The translations under genes were made by a program, and so were the position numbers. The notes beneath the pieces are model-generated. The model was not told the DNA's origin. It searched no databases and was given only the letters and a program-made list of their open reading frames with translations. Shown in pieces: positions 484 to 10,942 of a stretch of DNA of 20,012 bases. Position 1 is the stretch's first letter. Each line of letters opens with the position of its first letter. The stretch is from a virus, in the IMG/VR virus record IMGVR_UViG_3300030102_001213, positions 3,148-23,159 of that record, one strand, 5' to 3'.

Positions 484-726
484 ATGATTAACAAAACTTT
501 TACTGGAATCCCTGCACCTGAGTATTTGGATGAAGATCCGTGGTTTGGATACGCACCATACTCAAAAACTCAGCAAGATAAAATGATTGCTCAACTAGTA
601 AAAGAAAATTTAATCCTTGGAGATGACAATGGTAGTAAAGAACTAGACAATATCCATCAAATCATGTATAATCTATCTACACAGTTCAAGTCCTACATTG
701 GTGGATCTGAAAACGTTTGGCACTGA
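484..726 (+). CDS. Small unknown protein, 80 aa
   Basis: The ATG at 484 follows the hydrolase stop by one base, so the two genes are probably co-transcribed. Starts further upstream in the same frame lie inside the hydrolase and are less likely. The protein begins MINKTFTGIPAPEYLDEDPW and is hydrophilic, with no membrane segment, metal motif or recognised domain. The part from about residue 30 looks helical. Its TGA at 724-726 shares two bases with the first nucleotides of tRNA-Arg. No function can be assigned. Confidence 0.7.
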   Translation: MINKTFTGIPAPEYLDEDPWFGYAPYSKTQQDKMIAQLVKENLILGDDNGSKELDNIHQIMYNLSTQFKSYIGGSENVWH

Positions 727-797
727 CTCAATAGCTCAGCGGATAGAGCAACTGCCTTCTAAGCAGTCGGTCGTAGGTTCAAATCCTACTTGAGTCG
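725..797 (+). tRNA. tRNA-Arg (anticodon UCU)
   Basis: A full cloverleaf can be drawn. The acceptor stem GACTCAA (725-731) pairs with TTGAGTC (790-796), with discriminator G at 797. The D arm is GCTC/GAGC, the anticodon stem ACTGC/GCAGT has loop CTTCTAA (anticodon TCT), and the T arm is GTAGG/CCTAC with loop TTCAAAT. CCA is not encoded (the following bases are CCT). It reads AGA, which is the predominant Arg codon in the tail-fibre and protease genes downstream. Confidence 0.95.
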
Positions 798-801
798 CCT
801 T

Positions 802-883
802 GTCGTTGTGGCGGAATTGGTAGACGCGCTGGGTTTAGGTTCCAGTGGATTTATCCGTGGAGGTTCAAGTCCTCTCAGCGACA
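802..883 (+). tRNA. tRNA-Leu (anticodon UAG)
   Basis: The acceptor stem GTCGTTG (802-808) pairs with CAGCGAC (876-882) with one G-T pair, and the discriminator is A883. The anticodon stem CTGGG/TCCAG holds loop TTTAGGT (anticodon TAG). A long variable arm, GGAT-TTA-TCC, marks class II. The T arm is GGAGG/CCTCT with loop TTCAAGT. CCA is not encoded. It lies four bases after tRNA-Arg and would read CUA and other CUN codons. Confidence 0.93.
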
Positions 884-890
884 TTAAATA
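883..890 (+). promoter_or_regulatory. Possible T4-type late promoter (ATTAAATA)
   Basis: The octamer ATTAAATA begins at the last base of tRNA-Leu and would place a start near 896, some 13 bases before the ATG at 909. It resembles the late-promoter octamers at 2830, 8782, 9871, 13382 and 18039 but is the weakest by context, and such AT-rich octamers occur by chance. Confidence 0.3.
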
Positions 891-908
891 CTAAAAACAA
901 CACTTAAA

Positions 909-1082
909 ATGAAGTATCGTTTGTACAATGAACACCATGTTCATCAAGGAACTTTTGAAACACTAGAGAAGTTGAGAAACTTTTTATGTGAGAGAAAGTA
1001 TGACACCAATGATAGAACATATATGCACGATACATTTGATTATATCAAAGATATTAAGTGGCATTGGGATATTGAACAGTAG
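909..1082 (+). CDS. Small unknown protein, 57 aa
   Basis: ATG at 909 to TAG at 1080-1082 gives a 57-residue protein beginning MKYRLYNEHHVHQGTFETLE and ending IKWHWDIEQ. It fills the gap between tRNA-Leu and the talC promoter, which argues for a real gene. It is polar and rich in aromatic residues and His (HHVH near the start), with no transmembrane segment. There is no clear ribosome site. The fold could be a small alpha/beta domain, but no family is recognised. Confidence 0.65.
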   Translation: MKYRLYNEHHVHQGTFETLEKLRNFLCERKYDTNDRTYMHDTFDYIKDIKWHWDIEQ

Positions 1083-1111
1083 TTGACATTAACTACAAAT
1101 TACATTATAAT
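1083..1111 (+). promoter_or_regulatory. Consensus sigma70 promoter of the talC operon
   Basis: An exact TTGACA (1083-1088) and exact TATAAT (1106-1111) are separated by the optimal 17 bp, directly after the stop codon of the 57-aa gene. Transcription would start near 1118, leaving a leader of about 28 bases before talC. The match to the host housekeeping consensus points to expression by unmodified host RNA polymerase. Confidence 0.85.
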
Positions 1112-1145
1112 TTAGAAAAAGTCCTTAGACTATATACTTAACATC

Positions 1146-1793
1146 ATGCAAATTTTCCTAGACACAGCTGATTATTCTGAGATTAAAGACAGGTATGATA
1201 CTGGTCTAATTTCTGGCATCACCACTAACCCTACACTAGTTCGTAAGTCTGGTGTAAGTTACTTTGATTTTATTTCTTTGCTCTCTAAAGAGTTTAGTTT
1301 TGAAAGTATTTCAGCAGAGGTTAATGGAAATACTGCTAGTGAAATGATTGAGAATGCTCAACAATACATTGCTATTGGATCTGAGATTACAATTAAACTT
1401 CCTCTTACTAGAGAAGGTCTTATTGCTTGTAAAGATCTATCTGATGATGGCATTCAAACTAACGTAACTCTTTGTTTCTCTGTTGCACAGGCAGCGATGG
1501 CAGCAATGGCAGGAGCAACATATATTTCACCATTTGTTGGTCGTCTTAATGACAATTCATTCAGTGGTGTTGAATTAGTACGTAGTATTGCAAGTTTATA
1601 TTGCAATCAGGCACAGGAAACAAAAGTTCTTGCTGCTAGTTTGCGTGACGTACATCATGTATCTCGCTGTTTCTTATACGGTGCTTCTGTAGCTACTCTA
1701 CCTACTAAAGTATTTGATAAGATGTATAATCATGTTTTGACAGACGCAGGTTTGGCAATTTTTGAGGAAGACTTTAAAAATTTAAAAGCATGA
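1146..1793 (+). CDS. talC: Transaldolase, cyanophage TalC type
   Basis: This is a 215-aa short-form transaldolase (TalC/fructose-6-phosphate aldolase group), which moves a dihydroxyacetone unit between sugar phosphates in the non-oxidative pentose phosphate pathway. Family features are all visible: FLDTAD with Asp6, TTNP at 26-29, the Schiff-base lysine Lys84 in TIKLPLT, NVTLCFS at 106-112 and SPFVGR at 128-133. The length is normal for the short class and there is no truncation. Cyanophage talC is a known auxiliary metabolic gene that favours the pentose phosphate pathway over the Calvin cycle during infection. It is the first gene after a consensus sigma70 promoter and its stop overlaps the next start (ATGA). 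No clear ribosome site precedes the ATG. Confidence 0.97.
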   Translation: MQIFLDTADYSEIKDRYDTGLISGITTNPTLVRKSGVSYFDFISLLSKEFSFESISAEVNGNTASEMIENAQQYIAIGSEITIKLPLTREGLIACKDLSDDGIQTNVTLCFSVAQAAMAAMAGATYISPFVGRLNDNSFSGVELVRSIASLYCNQAQETKVLAASLRDVHHVSRCFLYGASVATLPTKVFDKMYNHVLTDAGLAIFEEDFKNLKA

Positions 1794-2032
1794 TAACAAT
1801 TTACTCTAAAACAGGTTGTCCTTATTGCATCAAACTTATAAAAGTTATGGAGCATGAAGGGTTAAATCATGTTGTGTATCAATTAGATGAAGATTACACT
1901 AGAGAGGAATTTTACGAAAAATTTGGAGAGGGTTCTACCTTTCCACAACTTGTATTGGATGATATTCATTTAGGTGGATGTAAAGAATCCATCAAACATA
2001 TGCAAAAAGAGAAAATCTGTTGTCAGGTATGA
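1790..2032 (+). CDS. Glutaredoxin
   Basis: This 80-aa protein has the glutaredoxin fold signature. The redox motif CPYC lies at residues 10-13 after the strand MITIYSKTG, with a cis-Pro TFPQ segment near residue 50 and a GGC segment near 62. It would reduce disulfides using glutathione, and a usual phage role is electron supply to ribonucleotide reductase for DNA synthesis. It shares ATGA with talC upstream and with the next gene downstream, so it should be translationally coupled. Two further Cys (CC) stand near the C-terminus, as in some small glutaredoxins. Confidence 0.93.
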   Translation: MITIYSKTGCPYCIKLIKVMEHEGLNHVVYQLDEDYTREEFYEKFGEGSTFPQLVLDDIHLGGCKESIKHMQKEKICCQV

Positions 2033-2232
2033 TTGAAGTATCACTAGAAGAATTTGAAAAAGACTTTGATTCTTACATGGATAGAATTGAAGCGGGAGAA
2101 AAATTTATGATTAGGAGACCTGATGGTAGAGCAGTTGCTGCTGTGCCAGCTAAAGAACTGGCACCTCATACCGAGCACATGAGTGATGATGAGTGGTATA
2201 ATACTTATAACAATCACGATGATGCATCATGA
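2029..2232 (+). CDS. Phd/YefM-like antitoxin homologue, 67 aa
   Basis: The ATG at 2029 overlaps the glutaredoxin stop as ATGA, like its neighbours, so I prefer it to the TTG at 2020. The first 45 or so residues read like the Phd/YefM antitoxin N-domain: MIEVSLEEFEKDFDSYMDRI, then EAGEKFMIRRPDGRAVAAV and PAKEL. That pattern (an initial strand, a helix, a strand ending in R-x-DGR, then a hydrophobic strand and x-x-E-x) forms the DNA-binding dimer in that family. The C-terminal tail is short, acidic and rich in Asn/Asp/Tyr, where Phd proteins carry their toxin-binding segment. No toxin gene is next to it. It could be an orphan antitoxin against host toxins or a small repressor. The assignment is by motif only. 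Confidence 0.65.
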   Translation: MIEVSLEEFEKDFDSYMDRIEAGEKFMIRRPDGRAVAAVPAKELAPHTEHMSDDEWYNTYNNHDDAS

Positions 2233-2498
2233 CTAAACCAGAAGTAATCCTTGAACGTTATCCGTATCGCTACGTCAAATGCGGTACACTAGAGATCAAT
2301 GGTATGCCAGATTACCGCATCCAAAAATACAATACTTGGAGTGGACGTTACAATGACATGTATCTTCTGGATAATGGAATTCAACTTGACTATGCCATGG
2401 AAGATTTCCAGTACACCAAGTGGTTAGATCCAGATCCAGAGGTAACAGCATACCCTAGAAAATCAGACACTTGTAAATCACCTTACTTAGAATCATGA
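2229..2498 (+). CDS. Unknown protein, 89 aa
   Basis: It starts in an ATGA overlap with the antitoxin homologue and ends in another with the next gene. The sequence is rich in aromatic and charged residues (for example YPYRYVKCG, YNTWSGRYNDMY, MEDFQYTKWLDPDP) and is soluble in appearance. I compared it by eye with RelE/YoeB and Doc toxins because of its position after an antitoxin-like gene, and it has neither their catalytic residues nor their strand pattern. The function is unknown. Confidence 0.75.
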   Translation: MTKPEVILERYPYRYVKCGTLEINGMPDYRIQKYNTWSGRYNDMYLLDNGIQLDYAMEDFQYTKWLDPDPEVTAYPRKSDTCKSPYLES

Positions 2499-2824
2499 GC
2501 GTTAAATCACAATTGGAAAAAGCAGAATCAGCAGTCCGTCAGGCATTGATTGCTGCTCTAGCAGAAGGCGAAGACGAGTATCTAACAGAATTGTTTGATA
2601 CACTTAACAATGTTCGCGATTTAAAAACTAAAATTGATAACACTATTAGGTTTACCGATAATACTGAGGAGTATTACGATAAAATTTCTAGTCCAATCAC
2701 TGGTAATATTGACCTATCAGATTTAGTTATCAGCACAAAAACAGGAAAAGACTTGGACGTTATGGACAACGTTATTGATTTTCCACTTAGTTTTTCAGAT
2801 ACCAAACCTGGCTTAACCGATTAA
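2495..2824 (+). CDS. Unknown protein, 109 aa
   Basis: This is the last gene of the ATGA-linked talC operon. The N-terminal 50 residues are probably helical, perhaps a coiled coil (SQLEKAESAVRQALIAALAE and ELFDTLNNVRDLKTKID). The rest is polar and acidic, with an NIDLSDLVISTKTGKDLDVM stretch. No membrane segment or catalytic motif is seen. The late promoter of the first tail-fibre gene follows its stop codon directly, so it marks the border between the metabolic and virion regions. The function is unknown. Confidence 0.75.
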   Translation: MSVKSQLEKAESAVRQALIAALAEGEDEYLTELFDTLNNVRDLKTKIDNTIRFTDNTEEYYDKISSPITGNIDLSDLVISTKTGKDLDVMDNVIDFPLSFSDTKPGLTD

Positions 2825-2829
2825 CCTTT

Positions 2830-2837
2830 AATAAATA
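2830..2837 (+). promoter_or_regulatory. T4-type late promoter (AATAAATA) of the 1072-aa fibre
   Basis: The octamer AATAAATA differs by one base from the T4 late consensus TATAAATA, read by polymerase carrying the gp55-like sigma and the sliding clamp. The octamer lies six bases past the previous stop. The predicted start is about 2843, giving a leader of about 32 bases with AGGA at 2863-2866. Confidence 0.7.
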
Positions 2838-2876
2838 CTTCTAGCTTAGAAATATTGTCTTCAGGACTAGAAGTAT
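2835..2876 (+). repeat. Perfect 10-bp inverted repeat over late promoter and start codon
   Basis: ATACTTCTAG at 2835-2844 is exactly complementary to CTAGAAGTAT at 2867-2876, with a 22-base loop. The left arm overlaps the end of the late promoter octamer, and the right arm covers the first two bases of the start codon at 2875-2877 and the bases before it. The AGGA ribosome site is in the loop, next to the stem. In RNA read through from upstream the start codon would be paired. In RNA begun at the late promoter most of the left arm is missing. Confidence 0.7.
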
Positions 2877-5800
2877 GTCAAAATTACTTGCGAACCAAAT
2901 CGCTAATTATGGGGACGATGCTCCCATTGAGATCAAAGAGGGTCTCAATATCCCTGCTGGTAAACCCATTCAGGCAGCAGGGATTTCTGGAGCTTCTGGT
3001 CAAGTTTTAACTTCTACTGGGACTTCTATTTCTTGGACAACTCCATTTGACGGGAACTATAATACTCTTACTAATAAACCTACGATACCTGCAGCGCAGG
3101 TAAACTCTGACTGGAATGCGACTAGTGGTGTCGCATCTATTTTAAATAAACCAGTCGTTCCACCACTACCAAGTGTAACTTTAACTGCTGCTGGATCATC
3201 AACTCTTACATATAATGCACAGAATGGTGAGTTTACTTTTACTCCACCAGATCTCTCTTCGTATCTGACATCATATACAGAAACTGATCCTGTTTTCTTA
3301 GCACATCCAGCATATCAAGTTACAACTCAAAAGATTACTAATTGGGATGCATCTTATTCTTGGGGTAACCATGCTTCAGCAGGATACTTAACATCTTATA
3401 CAGAAACTGATCCTGTATTTTCTGCTTCTGAAGCTGCTAGTATCACAGCACAAAATAAAACTAACTGGAACACAGCATATGGTTGGGGTAATCATGCTAC
3501 TGCTGGTTATCTAACAACATACACAGAAACAGATCCTGTGTTCCTAGCATCAGCAGCTGCTGGTGTGACAACTCAGTTGGTATCCAATTGGAATACTGCA
3601 TATACTTGGGGAGATCATGGTACTGCTGGTTATTTGACAGATCTTTCAACATCATCTATCAATGGTCTTAGTGATGTTTCTATTTCTACTGCTCAAAATA
3701 ATCAATTATTAAAATATAACGGTACTAATTGGATTAATTTTACACCAAATTATCTAACTACACTTGGATCTGTTGGTGGTCATACTGATGTTTCTTTAAC
3801 TACACCTTCTACAGGACAACTTCTTCAGTATAATGGATCTGAGTGGGAAAATTGGACTCCTAATTATCTAACATCTTTCACGGAGACAGATACATTAGCT
3901 AGTGTAACTGGTAGAGGTGCCTCTACAAACACACCATGTACATTCCTTAATGTAACTGTAAGTGGAAACTTAAACGTTCTTGGTACAACCACACAAAATA
4001 ATGTTACTACTCTAAACGTAACTAACAATGAGATTGTTATTAATGAGAACCAAGCATCTGGTGGATTAAATGCTATCATTAGAAATGACAGAGGTAGTGA
4101 TCCTGATGTAGATATTCGTTGGGATGAGGTTGCAAATAAATGGAAGTTTACTAACGACGGAACCACATATTATGATTTACCAACTGCAGCATCTGATCTT
4201 ACAAACGATGCAGGATACCTAACATCACTCGGATCTGTTGGTGGTCATACTGATGTAACACTCACTACTCCATCAGATAATCAATTACTAAAATATAACG
4301 CTGGAGCTACTAGGTGGGAGAATTGGACTCCTAATTACATATCAACTACTGGATCAATTGATAGTCACACTGATGTTGTAGTTACCTCTCCTACTGCTGA
4401 TCAAGTATTAAAATATAATGGAAGTCAATGGGTAAACACTAGTATTAGCACTACCGCTCAGGTTGTTGTTCAAGATGCAGCACCAAGTAATCCACAATCA
4501 GGTGATATGTGGTGGAAGTCTGATGAAGGAACACTCAAGATTTATTACTCTGATGTTGATACAAACCAATGGGTAGACGCTTCACCTATTGGTGATCCAT
4601 TTGAGAACACTTATGCGAGTATTGCATTCTTCCCTCAAGCAAATGTTAGTAAAGGTGCTTTTGCTTTCTCGGAAGCTACTGATGCAATGTACTATTCCAA
4701 CGGTACAAGTTGGACTAACCACAGAATTGTTACTACAAACAGTGCTACTTCATCAGATTTTGCCACACTACTTGCCAATACACAATTAACATATTCTGTT
4801 AGTGCAGTTGATGATCCTGGCGCAAATGCTGACAAGAAACTCATTAGATTATCAGATTCTCAGGGTGTTACTAGTGATATTGTCCTTACTGCAGGAACTG
4901 GATTATCTATCATTAAATCTAATAATGAAATTACATTTAACAATGATGTAACTGATACAACATATGGTATTTCTTCTGAAGCTGCTTCTGGATCTAACGC
5001 TACCTTTAGACTTACAGGAAGTGATGGTGTATTAGACAATATTACATTTGCTGGTGCTGACGGTCTGACCGTAGAGAACACAGACGCCAATACAATTACC
5101 TTTAGAGCACCTAACATTTCTACTCAGTTGTATACTGATGAGAAAGCACAAGATGCTATAGCACAGATGTTTGCAAATGGTACACATACAAACATCACAT
5201 TCACATATGATGATGCCAACAATTCTATCAGTGCTTCTGCTACTGGTGGCGGAGGAGGAGGTGGTGGAACCACCTATGATTTATTGGGATCAAACACTAC
5301 CAGTAATAACGCCATCATTACTCTCCGTGATGCTAATAATAATGATGATGATATTGAAATTACTGGTAGTAATGGTACAACTGTATCATGGGATGGTGCT
5401 AACAAAAGAATCACTCTTGATAGCACAGCACCAGTTCAACCAGATTGGGATGCTACATCTGGACTAGGACAAATTCTAAATAAACCAAGCATTCCTTCAG
5501 CATATACACTACCTATTGCTACTGCTGGTGCTATAGGTGGTATTAGAGTTGGTGCTAACCTATCAATTGATCCATCTACTGGTGTTCTTGATGCTAATCC
5601 TGGCTCATACACATTACCAACAGCAGATGCAACAACTCTTGGTGGTATCAAAGTTGGTTCTGGTCTTTCTATTGATGGTAACGGTGTCTTAACTGCTACT
5701 GGTGGTTCTACCGTTCCACAAATCCAAGATTTATCAGGAACCACAGCGTCACTTGCTGATGACGCATCTGCTGAACTAAATATTACAGGTTACAAAGCCT

Positions 5801-6093
5801 ATTCGTTATTCAAGATCACTACTGATGCAGAAGCATGGGTAAGAGTCTATGTAGATGATGCATCTAGAGATGCTGATACTACGAGAAGTGAAGGACAAGA
5901 TCCTTCGCCAGGCAGCGGTGTTATTGCTGAAGTGAGAACGTCTGGAGCAGAGTCAATTCTGGTTTCACCTGGCATTATGGGATTCAATAACGACAATCCA
6001 AGAACGGATAACATTTACCTAGCAGTCACTAATAGAAGTGGCGCAGCAACTACAATTACAGTCACTCTAACAGCACTACAAATAGGAGAATAA
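2875..6093 (+). CDS. Tail-fibre protein with TETDPVF repeats, 1072 aa
   Basis: This large, glycine-, threonine- and asparagine-rich beta protein is typical of cyanophage tail fibres. Residues 1-60 form an N-terminal segment with the GQVLTSTGTSISW motif. Residues 130-252 hold three 41-residue repeats (YLTSYTETDPVF then NW-x3-Y-x-WG[ND]H). Residues 295-330 and 449-487 hold two GSVGGHTDV...ENWTPNY modules. Around 362-435 is a GNLNVLGTTT module shared with the 1512-aa fibre, and about 535-571 is an SGDMWW...YYSDVD...WVDASP module shared with the 350-aa fibre. An eight-Gly run lies at 791-798. The C-terminal 125 residues match the end of the 346-aa fibre. No enzymatic motif is seen. The ribosome site AGGA is eight bases before ATG. 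Its role in host recognition is inferred from architecture. Confidence 0.88.
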   Translation: MSKLLANQIANYGDDAPIEIKEGLNIPAGKPIQAAGISGASGQVLTSTGTSISWTTPFDGNYNTLTNKPTIPAAQVNSDWNATSGVASILNKPVVPPLPSVTLTAAGSSTLTYNAQNGEFTFTPPDLSSYLTSYTETDPVFLAHPAYQVTTQKITNWDASYSWGNHASAGYLTSYTETDPVFSASEAASITAQNKTNWNTAYGWGNHATAGYLTTYTETDPVFLASAAAGVTTQLVSNWNTAYTWGDHGTAGYLTDLSTSSINGLSDVSISTAQNNQLLKYNGTNWINFTPNYLTTLGSVGGHTDVSLTTPSTGQLLQYNGSEWENWTPNYLTSFTETDTLASVTGRGASTNTPCTFLNVTVSGNLNVLGTTTQNNVTTLNVTNNEIVINENQASGGLNAIIRNDRGSDPDVDIRWDEVANKWKFTNDGTTYYDLPTAASDLTNDAGYLTSLGSVGGHTDVTLTTPSDNQLLKYNAGATRWENWTPNYISTTGSIDSHTDVVVTSPTADQVLKYNGSQWVNTSISTTAQVVVQDAAPSNPQSGDMWWKSDEGTLKIYYSDVDTNQWVDASPIGDPFENTYASIAFFPQANVSKGAFAFSEATDAMYYSNGTSWTNHRIVTTNSATSSDFATLLANTQLTYSVSAVDDPGANADKKLIRLSDSQGVTSDIVLTAGTGLSIIKSNNEITFNNDVTDTTYGISSEAASGSNATFRLTGSDGVLDNITFAGADGLTVENTDANTITFRAPNISTQLYTDEKAQDAIAQMFANGTHTNITFTYDDANNSISASATGGGGGGGGTTYDLLGSNTTSNNAIITLRDANNNDDDIEITGSNGTTVSWDGANKRITLDSTAPVQPDWDATSGLGQILNKPSIPSAYTLPIATAGAIGGIRVGANLSIDPSTGVLDANPGSYTLPTADATTLGGIKVGSGLSIDGNGVLTATGGSTVPQIQDLSGTTASLADDASAELNITGYKAYSLFKITTDAEAWVRVYVDDASRDADTTRSEGQDPSPGSGVIAEVRTSGAESILVSPGIMGFNNDNPRTDNIYLAVTNRSGAATTITVTLTALQIGE
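3262..3630 (+). repeat. Three tandem 123-bp (41-aa) coding repeats
   Basis: Three consecutive units encode YLT[ST]YTETDPVF...NW...Y.WG[ND]H..AG, starting at residues 130, 171 and 212 of the 1072-aa fibre. The period is exactly 41 residues. The copies differ at the DNA level, mostly in third positions, so the repeat is kept by selection on protein. Two related copies are in the 350-aa fibre gene at about 8935 and 9175. Confidence 0.85.
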
Positions 6094-8815: not shown

Positions 8816-9868
8816 ATGGCATTAGATTTCCCCGCATCACCGAATATTAATGATACGTATACGTTTGGTGGTGTAACGTGGACTTGGGATGGAACAACTT
8901 GGAAAGTTCTAGGTAGATTCCAGTTCACCTCGTCCGAAACTGATCCTGTTTTCAGTGCATCTCCTTCTGCAAATATTCTTCAACAAAATATTACTAACTG
9001 GAATACAGCATATGGTTGGGGAGACCATTCAGGTGCTGGTTACTTAACTTCAGTAGGATCTATTGGCAGTCATAGTGATGTAACGATAGCAACGTTGCAA
9101 GATGGACAATTATTAAAGTATAGTGTTGGTAATGCTACATGGGAAAACTGGACTCCTAATTTTCTTACTTCATATACAGAAACAGATCCTGTATTCGGTG
9201 CATCACCAGCTGGTGGTATTACGGGAACAAATATTACTAACTGGAACACAGCTTACAACTGGGGTGACCATAGCACTGGAGGATACTTAACAGCAGAGGC
9301 AGATACTCTTGCTACTGTAACAGGTAGAGGTGCAACAACTACTACTGATATTACAACTACAGGAAAGATTTTTTATTCCAATAACTTTGCTGATCTAACT
9401 GCACTCAATGCTGTCAATCCAACCACATATCATGGTATGTTTGCACATGTTCATGCAGAGGGTCATGGATATTTTGCACATGCTGGTGGATGGGTTCAAT
9501 TGTTAGACGAGGGATCTTCCATCAATGAACTAGCTGATGTAACCACTGGAACTATATCTACTGGCGACGTATTAACATGGAATGGTAGTGCTTGGGCAGC
9601 AACTGCTCCTACTGGTGGAGGTGGAGGTGGTGCTAACGTAACTATTTCTGATACTATTCCTGCTGGTACTCCTAGTGCTGGTGATCTTTGGTGGGAGAGT
9701 GACAGTGGTCGTCTAAAAGTATACTATACAGATGTTGATAGTTCTCAATGGGTTGATGCATCTCCACCATTATCACAGACAGATTATATCAAACTTAGTG
9801 ATCTCAAAACAGTTGTGGCTGCATCCAGTGACTTCGCTGATTTCCAGTCAAGAATTGCTGCTCTGTAA
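8816..9868 (+). CDS. Tail-fibre protein, 350 aa
   Basis: This is a modular fibre. Residues 1-33 form an N-domain (MALDFPASPNINDTYTFGGV then TWTWDGTTWKVLG) that matches the start of the next gene. Two ETDPVF...NWNTAYxWGDH repeats start at about 41 and 121, separated by a GSIGSHSDV...ENWTPNF block like those in the 1072-aa fibre. Residues 200-232 carry a His-rich YHGMFAHVHAEGHGYFAHAG block including an H-x-H. A Gly run is at 267-272, and an SAGDLWW...YYTDVD...WVDASP module is at 287-317. It ends in a likely helix (DFADFQSRIAAL). The ribosome site is weak. The role is likely as a fibre or a fibre segment in adsorption. Confidence 0.85.
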   Translation: MALDFPASPNINDTYTFGGVTWTWDGTTWKVLGRFQFTSSETDPVFSASPSANILQQNITNWNTAYGWGDHSGAGYLTSVGSIGSHSDVTIATLQDGQLLKYSVGNATWENWTPNFLTSYTETDPVFGASPAGGITGTNITNWNTAYNWGDHSTGGYLTAEADTLATVTGRGATTTTDITTTGKIFYSNNFADLTALNAVNPTTYHGMFAHVHAEGHGYFAHAGGWVQLLDEGSSINELADVTTGTISTGDVLTWNGSAWAATAPTGGGGGGANVTISDTIPAGTPSAGDLWWESDSGRLKVYYTDVDSSQWVDASPPLSQTDYIKLSDLKTVVAASSDFADFQSRIAAL

Positions 9869-9901: not shown

Positions 9902-10942
9902 ATGGCAATCAATTTTCCTGCAACAGCAGGACAACCAACAAACGGTTCATATACCTATACGGTAGCAGGTATTACTTACGCATGGGATGGGTCGTCATGG
10001 GAAGCAGCTGGTGCTGGTGCGAGTGCAACAGACACAACTCTCTTCAGTGTTAGTACAAATCCTACTGGTACTGCAGCTCTTTCTTACAATAATAATACTG
10101 GTGCGTTTACATATACTCCTCCTGATCTTTCTGGTTATCTGACATCAGAATCTGATACTCTCTCCACTATCTTAGGTAGAGGAAATGGATCGGGTGCAAA
10201 TGATATTGAGATTGCTGATGATCAATCAATTAAACTTGGTGCTTCATTTGACCTACAGATTTATCATAACTCAACTGCAGGATCTAATATCAGAGAGAAT
10301 GGATTCGGTCCTCTCAACATTTGGGGTACAGATATTAATATTCTTGACTCTACAGGAACTGAAACGAAAGCAACTTTCTCTACTGGTGGTTCTTGTTCAC
10401 TGAGTTGGGGTGGAACAACTAAGTTTGAGACTACAACAAATGGTGCAACAATTACAGGAGCACTTACAGCTGGTGGGTTAACTTATCCAACAACTAACGG
10501 AAATATTGGACAGGCATTGATTGGAGATGGTGCAGGTAATGTTGGATGGGGTGACGTTGCAACTATTGGTTTACAACCAAGAAAGACAGCATCTGTAACA
10601 CAGTCTATTGCTAGTGGTGCTGCATCAAACGTGTCTATATCAACTGCTAAAGGATTTGTTTTGTATAGTATTGAGACATCACACGCTGCATGGGTAACAC
10701 TATATACCGACACTGCCAGTAGAACTGCTGATGCTGGTAGACTTGAAATCACTGATCCCACACCTGGTTCTGGAGTTCTATCGGAAGTTATTACTACAGG
10801 AGCAGTCACACAATTAATTACGCCAGGAACTATTTGTTTTAATTCTTCTCCTACAGCAACAACATATGCCAAGATTGTAAATAAAAGTGGATCCACTGCA
10901 AACGTACAGGTAACTCTTACTTATCTACAACTAGAGGCATAA
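9902..10942 (+). CDS. Tail-fibre protein, 346 aa
   Basis: The N-domain (MAINFPATAG then YTYTVAGITYAWDGSSW) is a paralogue of that in the 350-aa fibre. A GAFTYTPPDLSGYL block like residues 118-131 of the 1072-aa fibre follows. Residues 100-190 hold a marine-phage fibre module: IKLGASFDLQIYHNS, RENGFGPLNIWG, then TTKFETTTNGATITGALTAG. The last 120 residues, from ASVTQSIASG to LTYLQLEA, match the C-terminus of the 1072-aa fibre. Ribosome site AGGAG stands 11 bases before ATG. It is co-transcribed with the protease gene, which begins one base after its stop. A role in host binding is inferred. Confidence 0.85.
   Translation: MAINFPATAGQPTNGSYTYTVAGITYAWDGSSWEAAGAGASATDTTLFSVSTNPTGTAALSYNNNTGAFTYTPPDLSGYLTSESDTLSTILGRGNGSGANDIEIADDQSIKLGASFDLQIYHNSTAGSNIRENGFGPLNIWGTDINILDSTGTETKATFSTGGSCSLSWGGTTKFETTTNGATITGALTAGGLTYPTTNGNIGQALIGDGAGNVGWGDVATIGLQPRKTASVTQSIASGAASNVSISTAKGFVLYSIETSHAAWVTLYTDTASRTADAGRLEITDPTPGSGVLSEVITTGAVTQLITPGTICFNSSPTATTYAKIVNKSGSTANVQVTLTYLQLEA

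Follow-up and report, generated by a model that had tools for sequence, protein, structure and literature searches.

Inhibitory structures in the translation initiation region are documented for the bacteriophage T4 genes e, soc, and 49 and for I-TevI (PMC3014915; for I-TevI, PMC2988022), and a preliminary description of the locus studied here had rightly named the first three as users of the arrangement that it proposed. I-TevI, I-TevII, I-TevIII, segB, and Aeh1 mobE are late genes carried on early transcripts, in which the ribosome binding site is hidden by a hairpin and is freed by late initiation (PMC2988022). In cyanophages, the nearest described leader structure is an inverted repeat located before psbA in S-PM2d (PMC5931967). 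The mechanism itself is already known in T4, and what is new here is its proposed extension to a cyanophage fibre gene. The preliminary description knew of no precedent for such a gene, and we found none in a search that covered mainly open-access papers.

The DNA that was analysed, called the window below, is a stretch of 20,012 nucleotides taken from a virus record that is 23,159 bases long. Among named phages, it is most closely related to Synechococcus phages of the family Kyanoviridae, above all to ACG-2014i.

The fibre leader and the operon upstream

The features of the locus are collected in Table 1. The late promoter box, AATAAATA (2830-2837), is of the same type as NATAAATA, the late promoter of S-PM2 (PMC2984593), and it is linked to the fibre AUG by an inverted repeat. 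The left arm, ATACTTCTAG, and the right arm, CTAGAAGTAT, are exact reverse complements separated by 22 nt, and the perfect 10-bp repeat first claimed for this site is thereby confirmed. The first two bases of the fibre ATG (2875-2877) lie within the right arm. From the spacing of T4 late promoters, late transcription is predicted to start at about 2843 (plus or minus 1) and, because of this position, the late RNA would retain two of the ten left-arm bases. The coordinates also agree with the layout given in the preliminary description, with the left arm mostly 5′ of the predicted +1 and the right arm over the ATG.

Table 1. Coordinates of the features of the locus within the window.
Feature	Position	Strand	Evidence and remarks
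Sigma-70 promoter TTGACA-17-TATAAT	1083-1111	+	12/12 matches; likely to drive early/middle expression of the talC operon
talC transaldolase, first gene of the operon	1146-1793	+	Pfam TAL_FSA, E 7e-52
Glutaredoxin	1790-2032	+	Pfam Glutaredoxin, E 3.8e-12
Phd-like antitoxin homologue	2020-2232	+	Pfam PhdYeFM, E 2e-4, under the curated cutoff; same annotated place in relatives
109-aa ORF, last before the late promoter	2495-2824	+	ORF; stop codon ends 5 nt 5′ of the late box
Late promoter box AATAAATA	2830-2837	+	Sequence; NATAAATA type; [AC]TAAATA box in 82/82 distinct leaders
Left arm ATACTTCTAG	2835-2844	+	Late box includes its first 3 nt; its last 2 nt lie 3′ of the predicted +1
Predicted late transcription start (+1)	2843	+	Inferred from T4 late promoter spacing
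Inner hairpin UCU(UCA)GGA, conserved	2858-2866	+	Possible pairing of the Shine-Dalgarno, with stacking on the outer helix
Shine-Dalgarno AGGA	2863-2866	+	Sequence; 8 nt 5′ of the ATG; kept in most leaders; adjoins the right arm
Right arm CTAGAAGTAT	2867-2876	+	Covers A and U of the start codon; pairing kept in relatives
1072-aa tail fibre gene, directly 3′ of the late promoter	2875-6093	+	PHROG 9729 tail fiber protein, E 1.8e-179

Perfect 10-bp repeats at such a spacing are not rare by themselves, since three occur in the 20-kb window. A perfect repeat over the ATG is rare: when the leader was shuffled by dinucleotides, one arose in 0.065% of cases. Judged by the comparative evidence presented below, the question of a chance origin is moot. 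Rfam covariance models gave no match over 2830-2877 at E values up to 10; the nearest match (2774-2807, E 9.6) is at chance level.

A search for terminator-like sites in 700-3100 returned none, in keeping with the early claim that no terminator is visible after the talC operon, and a perfect sigma-70 promoter is present in addition. A 12/12 sigma-70 site, with 18 nt spacing, is also found upstream of talC in 8/8 relatives, which makes nine of nine phages in all. In Prochlorococcus infected by the T4-like cyanophage P-HM2, talC falls into the middle cluster of genes (PMC5082946). The last ORF before the late box has counterparts with similar C-termini (GKDLDNLDG) directly upstream of the leader in many relatives.

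Some other observations concern the surroundings. Two tRNA genes (window 725-883), followed by the sigma-70 promoter, lie upstream of talC. The Phd-like antitoxin homologue is found between talC and the fibre gene in nine of nine phages (L006-L013 and the window), and no partner toxin is evident in their annotations. On the 3′ side, short segments from the 5′ portion of the fibre gene are repeated with 70-77% identity (window 3268-3516, 8936-9292, and 10082-10147), within the gene itself and in the two downstream fibre ORFs, which suggests duplicated or shuffled fibre modules.

Predicted folding and pair-preserving evolution of the leader

The predicted folds of the two RNAs agree with the claim that a long RNA hides the start whereas a short one frees it. 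The read-through RNA (2830-2885) has a folding energy of -15.0 kcal/mol (z -4.5), with no shuffle equally good, whereas the predicted late RNA, starting at 2843, reaches -3.4 kcal/mol (z +0.6) and the hairpin is gone. The opening energy of the start region, that is, the cost of keeping the 14 nt 5′ of the ATG through the ATG unpaired, is 12.1 kcal/mol in the read-through RNA vs. 3.9 kcal/mol in the predicted late RNA. This result is robust to an error of 1 nt: with the late start moved to 2842 or 2844, the opening energy is 3.9-4.2 kcal/mol. Moving the start to 2841, 2840, and 2838 raises it to 6.3, 7.1, and 9.3 kcal/mol, respectively, and this steep climb with earlier starts makes a sharp prediction for the late 5′ end.

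Inside the outer helix, two inner pairings compete. CUU/AGG is the minimum-energy one, whereas UCU/GGA pairs more consistently across sequences, with 97.4% of cells paired in 52 sequences.

The comparison across related cyanophages that had been called for was run on leaders gathered by scans of IMG/VR and of phage records, 82 of which are distinct. Only full leaders were counted, as the left-arm pattern alone also matches unrelated coding DNA. All 82 have the late box, and all are followed by one type of fibre N-terminus, MSK[IL]LANQI; among isolates, this fibre family is found in Synechococcus phages only (25 records). Pairwise identity between leaders is 83% over the 8 nt 3′ of the box and 80% over the 18 nt 5′ of the ATG, to be compared with 35% just 5′ of the box and 49% at the third codon positions of the fibre gene. 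The conserved bases flank the predicted +1 on both sides. Over the 82 leaders, the median fold is -14.5 kcal/mol for the long form vs. -5.4 kcal/mol for the short one, and start accessibility is 0.185 vs. 0.54, the long-form value lying below 0.25 in 69 leaders. Most relatives keep the pairing, via wobble and compensatory changes.

How the arms change was followed in 52 leaders, where 93.4% of the cells of the 10-bp helix are standard pairs, vs. 26-55% in slid controls in which one strand was moved by 1-3 columns. Two helix pairs show changes on both sides. Double compensation yields a perfect helix from other bases in L010 (S-MbCM7), where ATATTACTAG faces CTAGTAATAT, and in L336, where ATATTTCTAG faces CTAGAAATAT. 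Because the leader is so conserved, the covariation term of RNAalifold is weak, and a directional count of transitions was adopted for this reason; a shuffle control on the number of covarying pairs was likewise not decisive at this level of conservation. At the central pairs 4-8, 39 wobble-keeping transitions, meaning left C-to-U or right A-to-G changes that both lead to G.U (compensated cases being counted on the left side), stand against one uncompensated pair-breaking transition, in L329. With five sites of each kind, the expectation without structure is about half and half, and p is about 1e-10 if the leaders are independent, as the count takes them to be. Fitch counts on a small tree, built from only 180 nt of coding sequence, give about 36 to 1. 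Since the tolerated changes maintain base pairing of the + strand RNA and destroy the symmetry of the DNA, the target of selection is the RNA rather than a DNA palindrome. Taken as a whole, these comparisons show that the leader helix has evolved in a pair-preserving manner, with strand polarity.

Exceptions were also found. The canonical left arm is lost in L303 and L306, and a new TCTCAG pairs there with CTGAGA over the Shine-Dalgarno region. In a distant homologue from Sf-FR1, the late box is present, no hairpin was found, and a strong terminator-like sequence lies upstream. The preliminary description had staked its case on the absence of a terminator and on arms that keep their pairing in relatives; this part stands for the window and for most relatives, but some relatives do have a terminator directly upstream, and folding of the 82 leaders revealed no hairpin over the start in three of them (L305, L313, and L315). 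As judged from the leader sequences, the predicted switch is common, not obligatory, in the fibre family.

A proposed early/late switch and competing readings

We regard a T4-type early/late translational switch acting on the cyanophage tail-fibre gene as the best explanation for this leader, and as a probable one. The sequence, the predicted fold, the loss of this fold in the short RNA, the conservation, and the promoter layout have been shown above. In the proposed mechanism, RNA of the talC operon, driven by the sigma-70 promoter, would read through into the fibre gene and carry both arms. In its hairpin, the right arm would enclose the AUG and the adjoining helix the Shine-Dalgarno; 30S binding would thus be blocked and the fibre would not be translated. 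After DNA replication, an RNA polymerase of the gp55 type, directed by the late box, would initiate within the left arm, and the resulting mRNA, devoid of eight of the ten left-arm bases, could not fold and would be translated. Read-through, the late start at 2843 (plus or minus 1), and the block of 30S binding are the steps that we infer.

Features of T4-type switches can be recognized at the locus. The predicted fold of the longer RNA has a hairpin enclosing the start codon and the Shine-Dalgarno, and the late promoter is placed, for the predicted +1, in such a way that late RNA would lack the 5′ arm. Early/middle genes lie upstream on the same strand, making read-through possible, with a terminator intervening in 12 of the relatives' leader types. 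Finally, pairing is kept in relatives, apart from the three leaders already mentioned.

The same hairpin could also work as a translational insulator, silencing any read-through RNA all through infection, whether it comes from a tRNA or metabolic operon or has passed a leaky terminator, so that fibre output would depend on the late promoter only. Directly upstream of the 82 leaders lie protein ORFs (41 leaders), tRNA-Gly genes (27), intrinsic terminators (12), and unclassified elements (2), and preservation of the hairpin behind the first three, which are unrelated contexts, fits with insulation. In the 12 leader types with a terminator directly upstream, read-through should already be low, which counts against a timing switch. 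However, with a sigma-70-type promoter upstream and a talC expressed with the middle genes in P-HM2, most read-through should precede late transcription, and insulation and timing are, mechanistically, the same device. We hold pure insulation to be unlikely.

The upstream elements call for two remarks of their own. By inspection, the C-termini encoded by the upstream ORFs resemble those of small hypothetical proteins and of probable 2OG oxygenases. The tRNA-Gly gene ends 3-11 nt 5′ of the late box in 27 leader types (for example, L010, L013, and L133), and at so short a distance 3′ processing of the tRNA would give an RNA starting with the complete hairpin.

According to another reading, the leader and the fibre N-terminus form a conserved DNA module that provides homology for fibre-gene exchange, the repeat being incidental. 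Indeed, in pattern scans the complete leader always stands before the MSK[IL]LANQI N-terminus, in several genomic contexts. Yet the arms are more conserved than third codon positions in the fibre gene itself, and changes that keep RNA pairing with a wobble polarity are not predicted by homology alone. This reading is already disfavoured and seems to us quite improbable.

Even less credible is a structure acting on the late mRNA itself, as a 5′ stabilising element or as a weak Shine-Dalgarno hairpin, for instance with the conserved GUCU...GGAC stem. The consistently paired inner stem does lie wholly inside the late RNA, but the conserved left-arm bases 5′ of +1 and the pair-preserving changes in the outer stem are then left unexplained. 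A DNA operator, in which the repeat would bind a dimeric repressor, can draw on the overlap of the left arm with the late promoter and on the precedent of I-TevI, which autorepresses its own late promoter (PMC2988022), but it was rejected as extremely improbable because the common changes (left C-to-U, right A-to-G) break dyad symmetry and yet are tolerated in the + strand RNA, where they keep pairing.

If a T4-type switch does operate here, it would add an abundant group of marine viruses to the short classic list of T4 translational switches, and it would reach a fibre probably involved in host recognition. It would also illustrate one way for a late gene to lie behind an early metabolic operon with no terminator in between. 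Cyanophage transcriptome studies that ignored it would mistake read-through RNA for a sign of early fibre expression. The natural compensatory variants make the switch directly testable. As a tentative extension, for us somewhat short of probable, the leader and the fibre N-terminus may constitute a portable regulatory cassette, the RNA switch travelling with the fibre gene among marine cyanophages and being placeable behind unrelated sigma-70 or tRNA operons. Whatever site the gene reached, fibre synthesis would then stay tied to late transcription coupled to replication.

Control scans and comparison with known systems

Among about 45 late-box starts in ACG-2014i, whose genome is the nearest complete one, the fibre leader comes first, with an accessibility gain of 0.37 on losing the upstream arm; the next largest gains are 0.27 and 0.24. 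The four other late-box genes scanned in the window (8816, 9902, 13422, and 18069) show no switch, with accessibility changes of -0.06 to +0.03 vs. -0.37 for the fibre gene, which bears out the earlier remark that the other late promoters lack a comparable repeat. In T4, a similar measure goes from 0.18 to 0.33 for gene e (gain 0.15) and from 0.18 to 0.39 for segB (0.21), the gain being 0.49 for gene 49 and as weak as 0.06 for soc. Since soc is a known case, the measure is informative but imperfect. The predicted switching of the fibre leader lies in the range spanned by genes e and 49 of T4.

The scans drew attention to two other sites. A strong start hairpin at Syn9 gp4 was considered as a second cyanophage switch and rejected, as two divergent late promoters form the palindrome. 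Such a palindrome exists between a gp4-like gene and neighbouring tail genes in Syn9 (L271, about 5147-5181) and in T4 (genes 4 and 53, 77337/77385, NC_000866), and in both its RNA would form a hairpin on a start codon or close to one. It is probably a by-product of the back-to-back promoters, and its RNA hairpins may matter. The second site is T4 gene 5.4 (80779, NC_000866), which has a variant late box, ATAAATT, upstream, followed by GTACC...GGGGTATTATAAATG. Of the T4 genes scanned, this one has the strongest predicted switch, with accessibility going from 0.04 to 0.56, and it is absent from a published list of known switch cases.

With respect to the known systems, the fibre leader shares its layout with T4 gene e (lysozyme), where the late promoter lies in the 5′ arm, early read-through RNA sequesters the initiation region, and late RNA lacks the arm (PMC3014915). 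The predicted strength is similar, -16.4 kcal/mol for gene e. However, gene e is a lysis gene of an E. coli phage whose repression was measured (about 100-fold), whereas the gene studied here is a tail-fibre gene of cyanophages. Moreover, the outer right arm of the fibre leader covers the AUG and not the Shine-Dalgarno, unlike in gene e; the likeness is one of layout, and no sequence homology is claimed. T4 gene 49 has the same geometry and a strong predicted switch (accessibility 0.10 to 0.59), but it encodes endonuclease VII, with an alternative internal start, and is unrelated to fibres. Like the fibre gene, soc is a structural late gene with an inhibitory structure in its initiation region (PMC3014915), although its product is a small outer capsid protein and it scores weakly for accessibility. 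The I-Tev genes, segB, and Aeh1 mobE share the principle, but they encode homing endonucleases and not virion proteins. Finally, the psbA 5′-UTR of S-PM2d also carries a cyanophage inverted repeat near a late promoter motif, but this repeat is of 36 bp, the control proposed for it is a light-dependent one of the mRNA, and no start-codon switch is described (PMC5931967).
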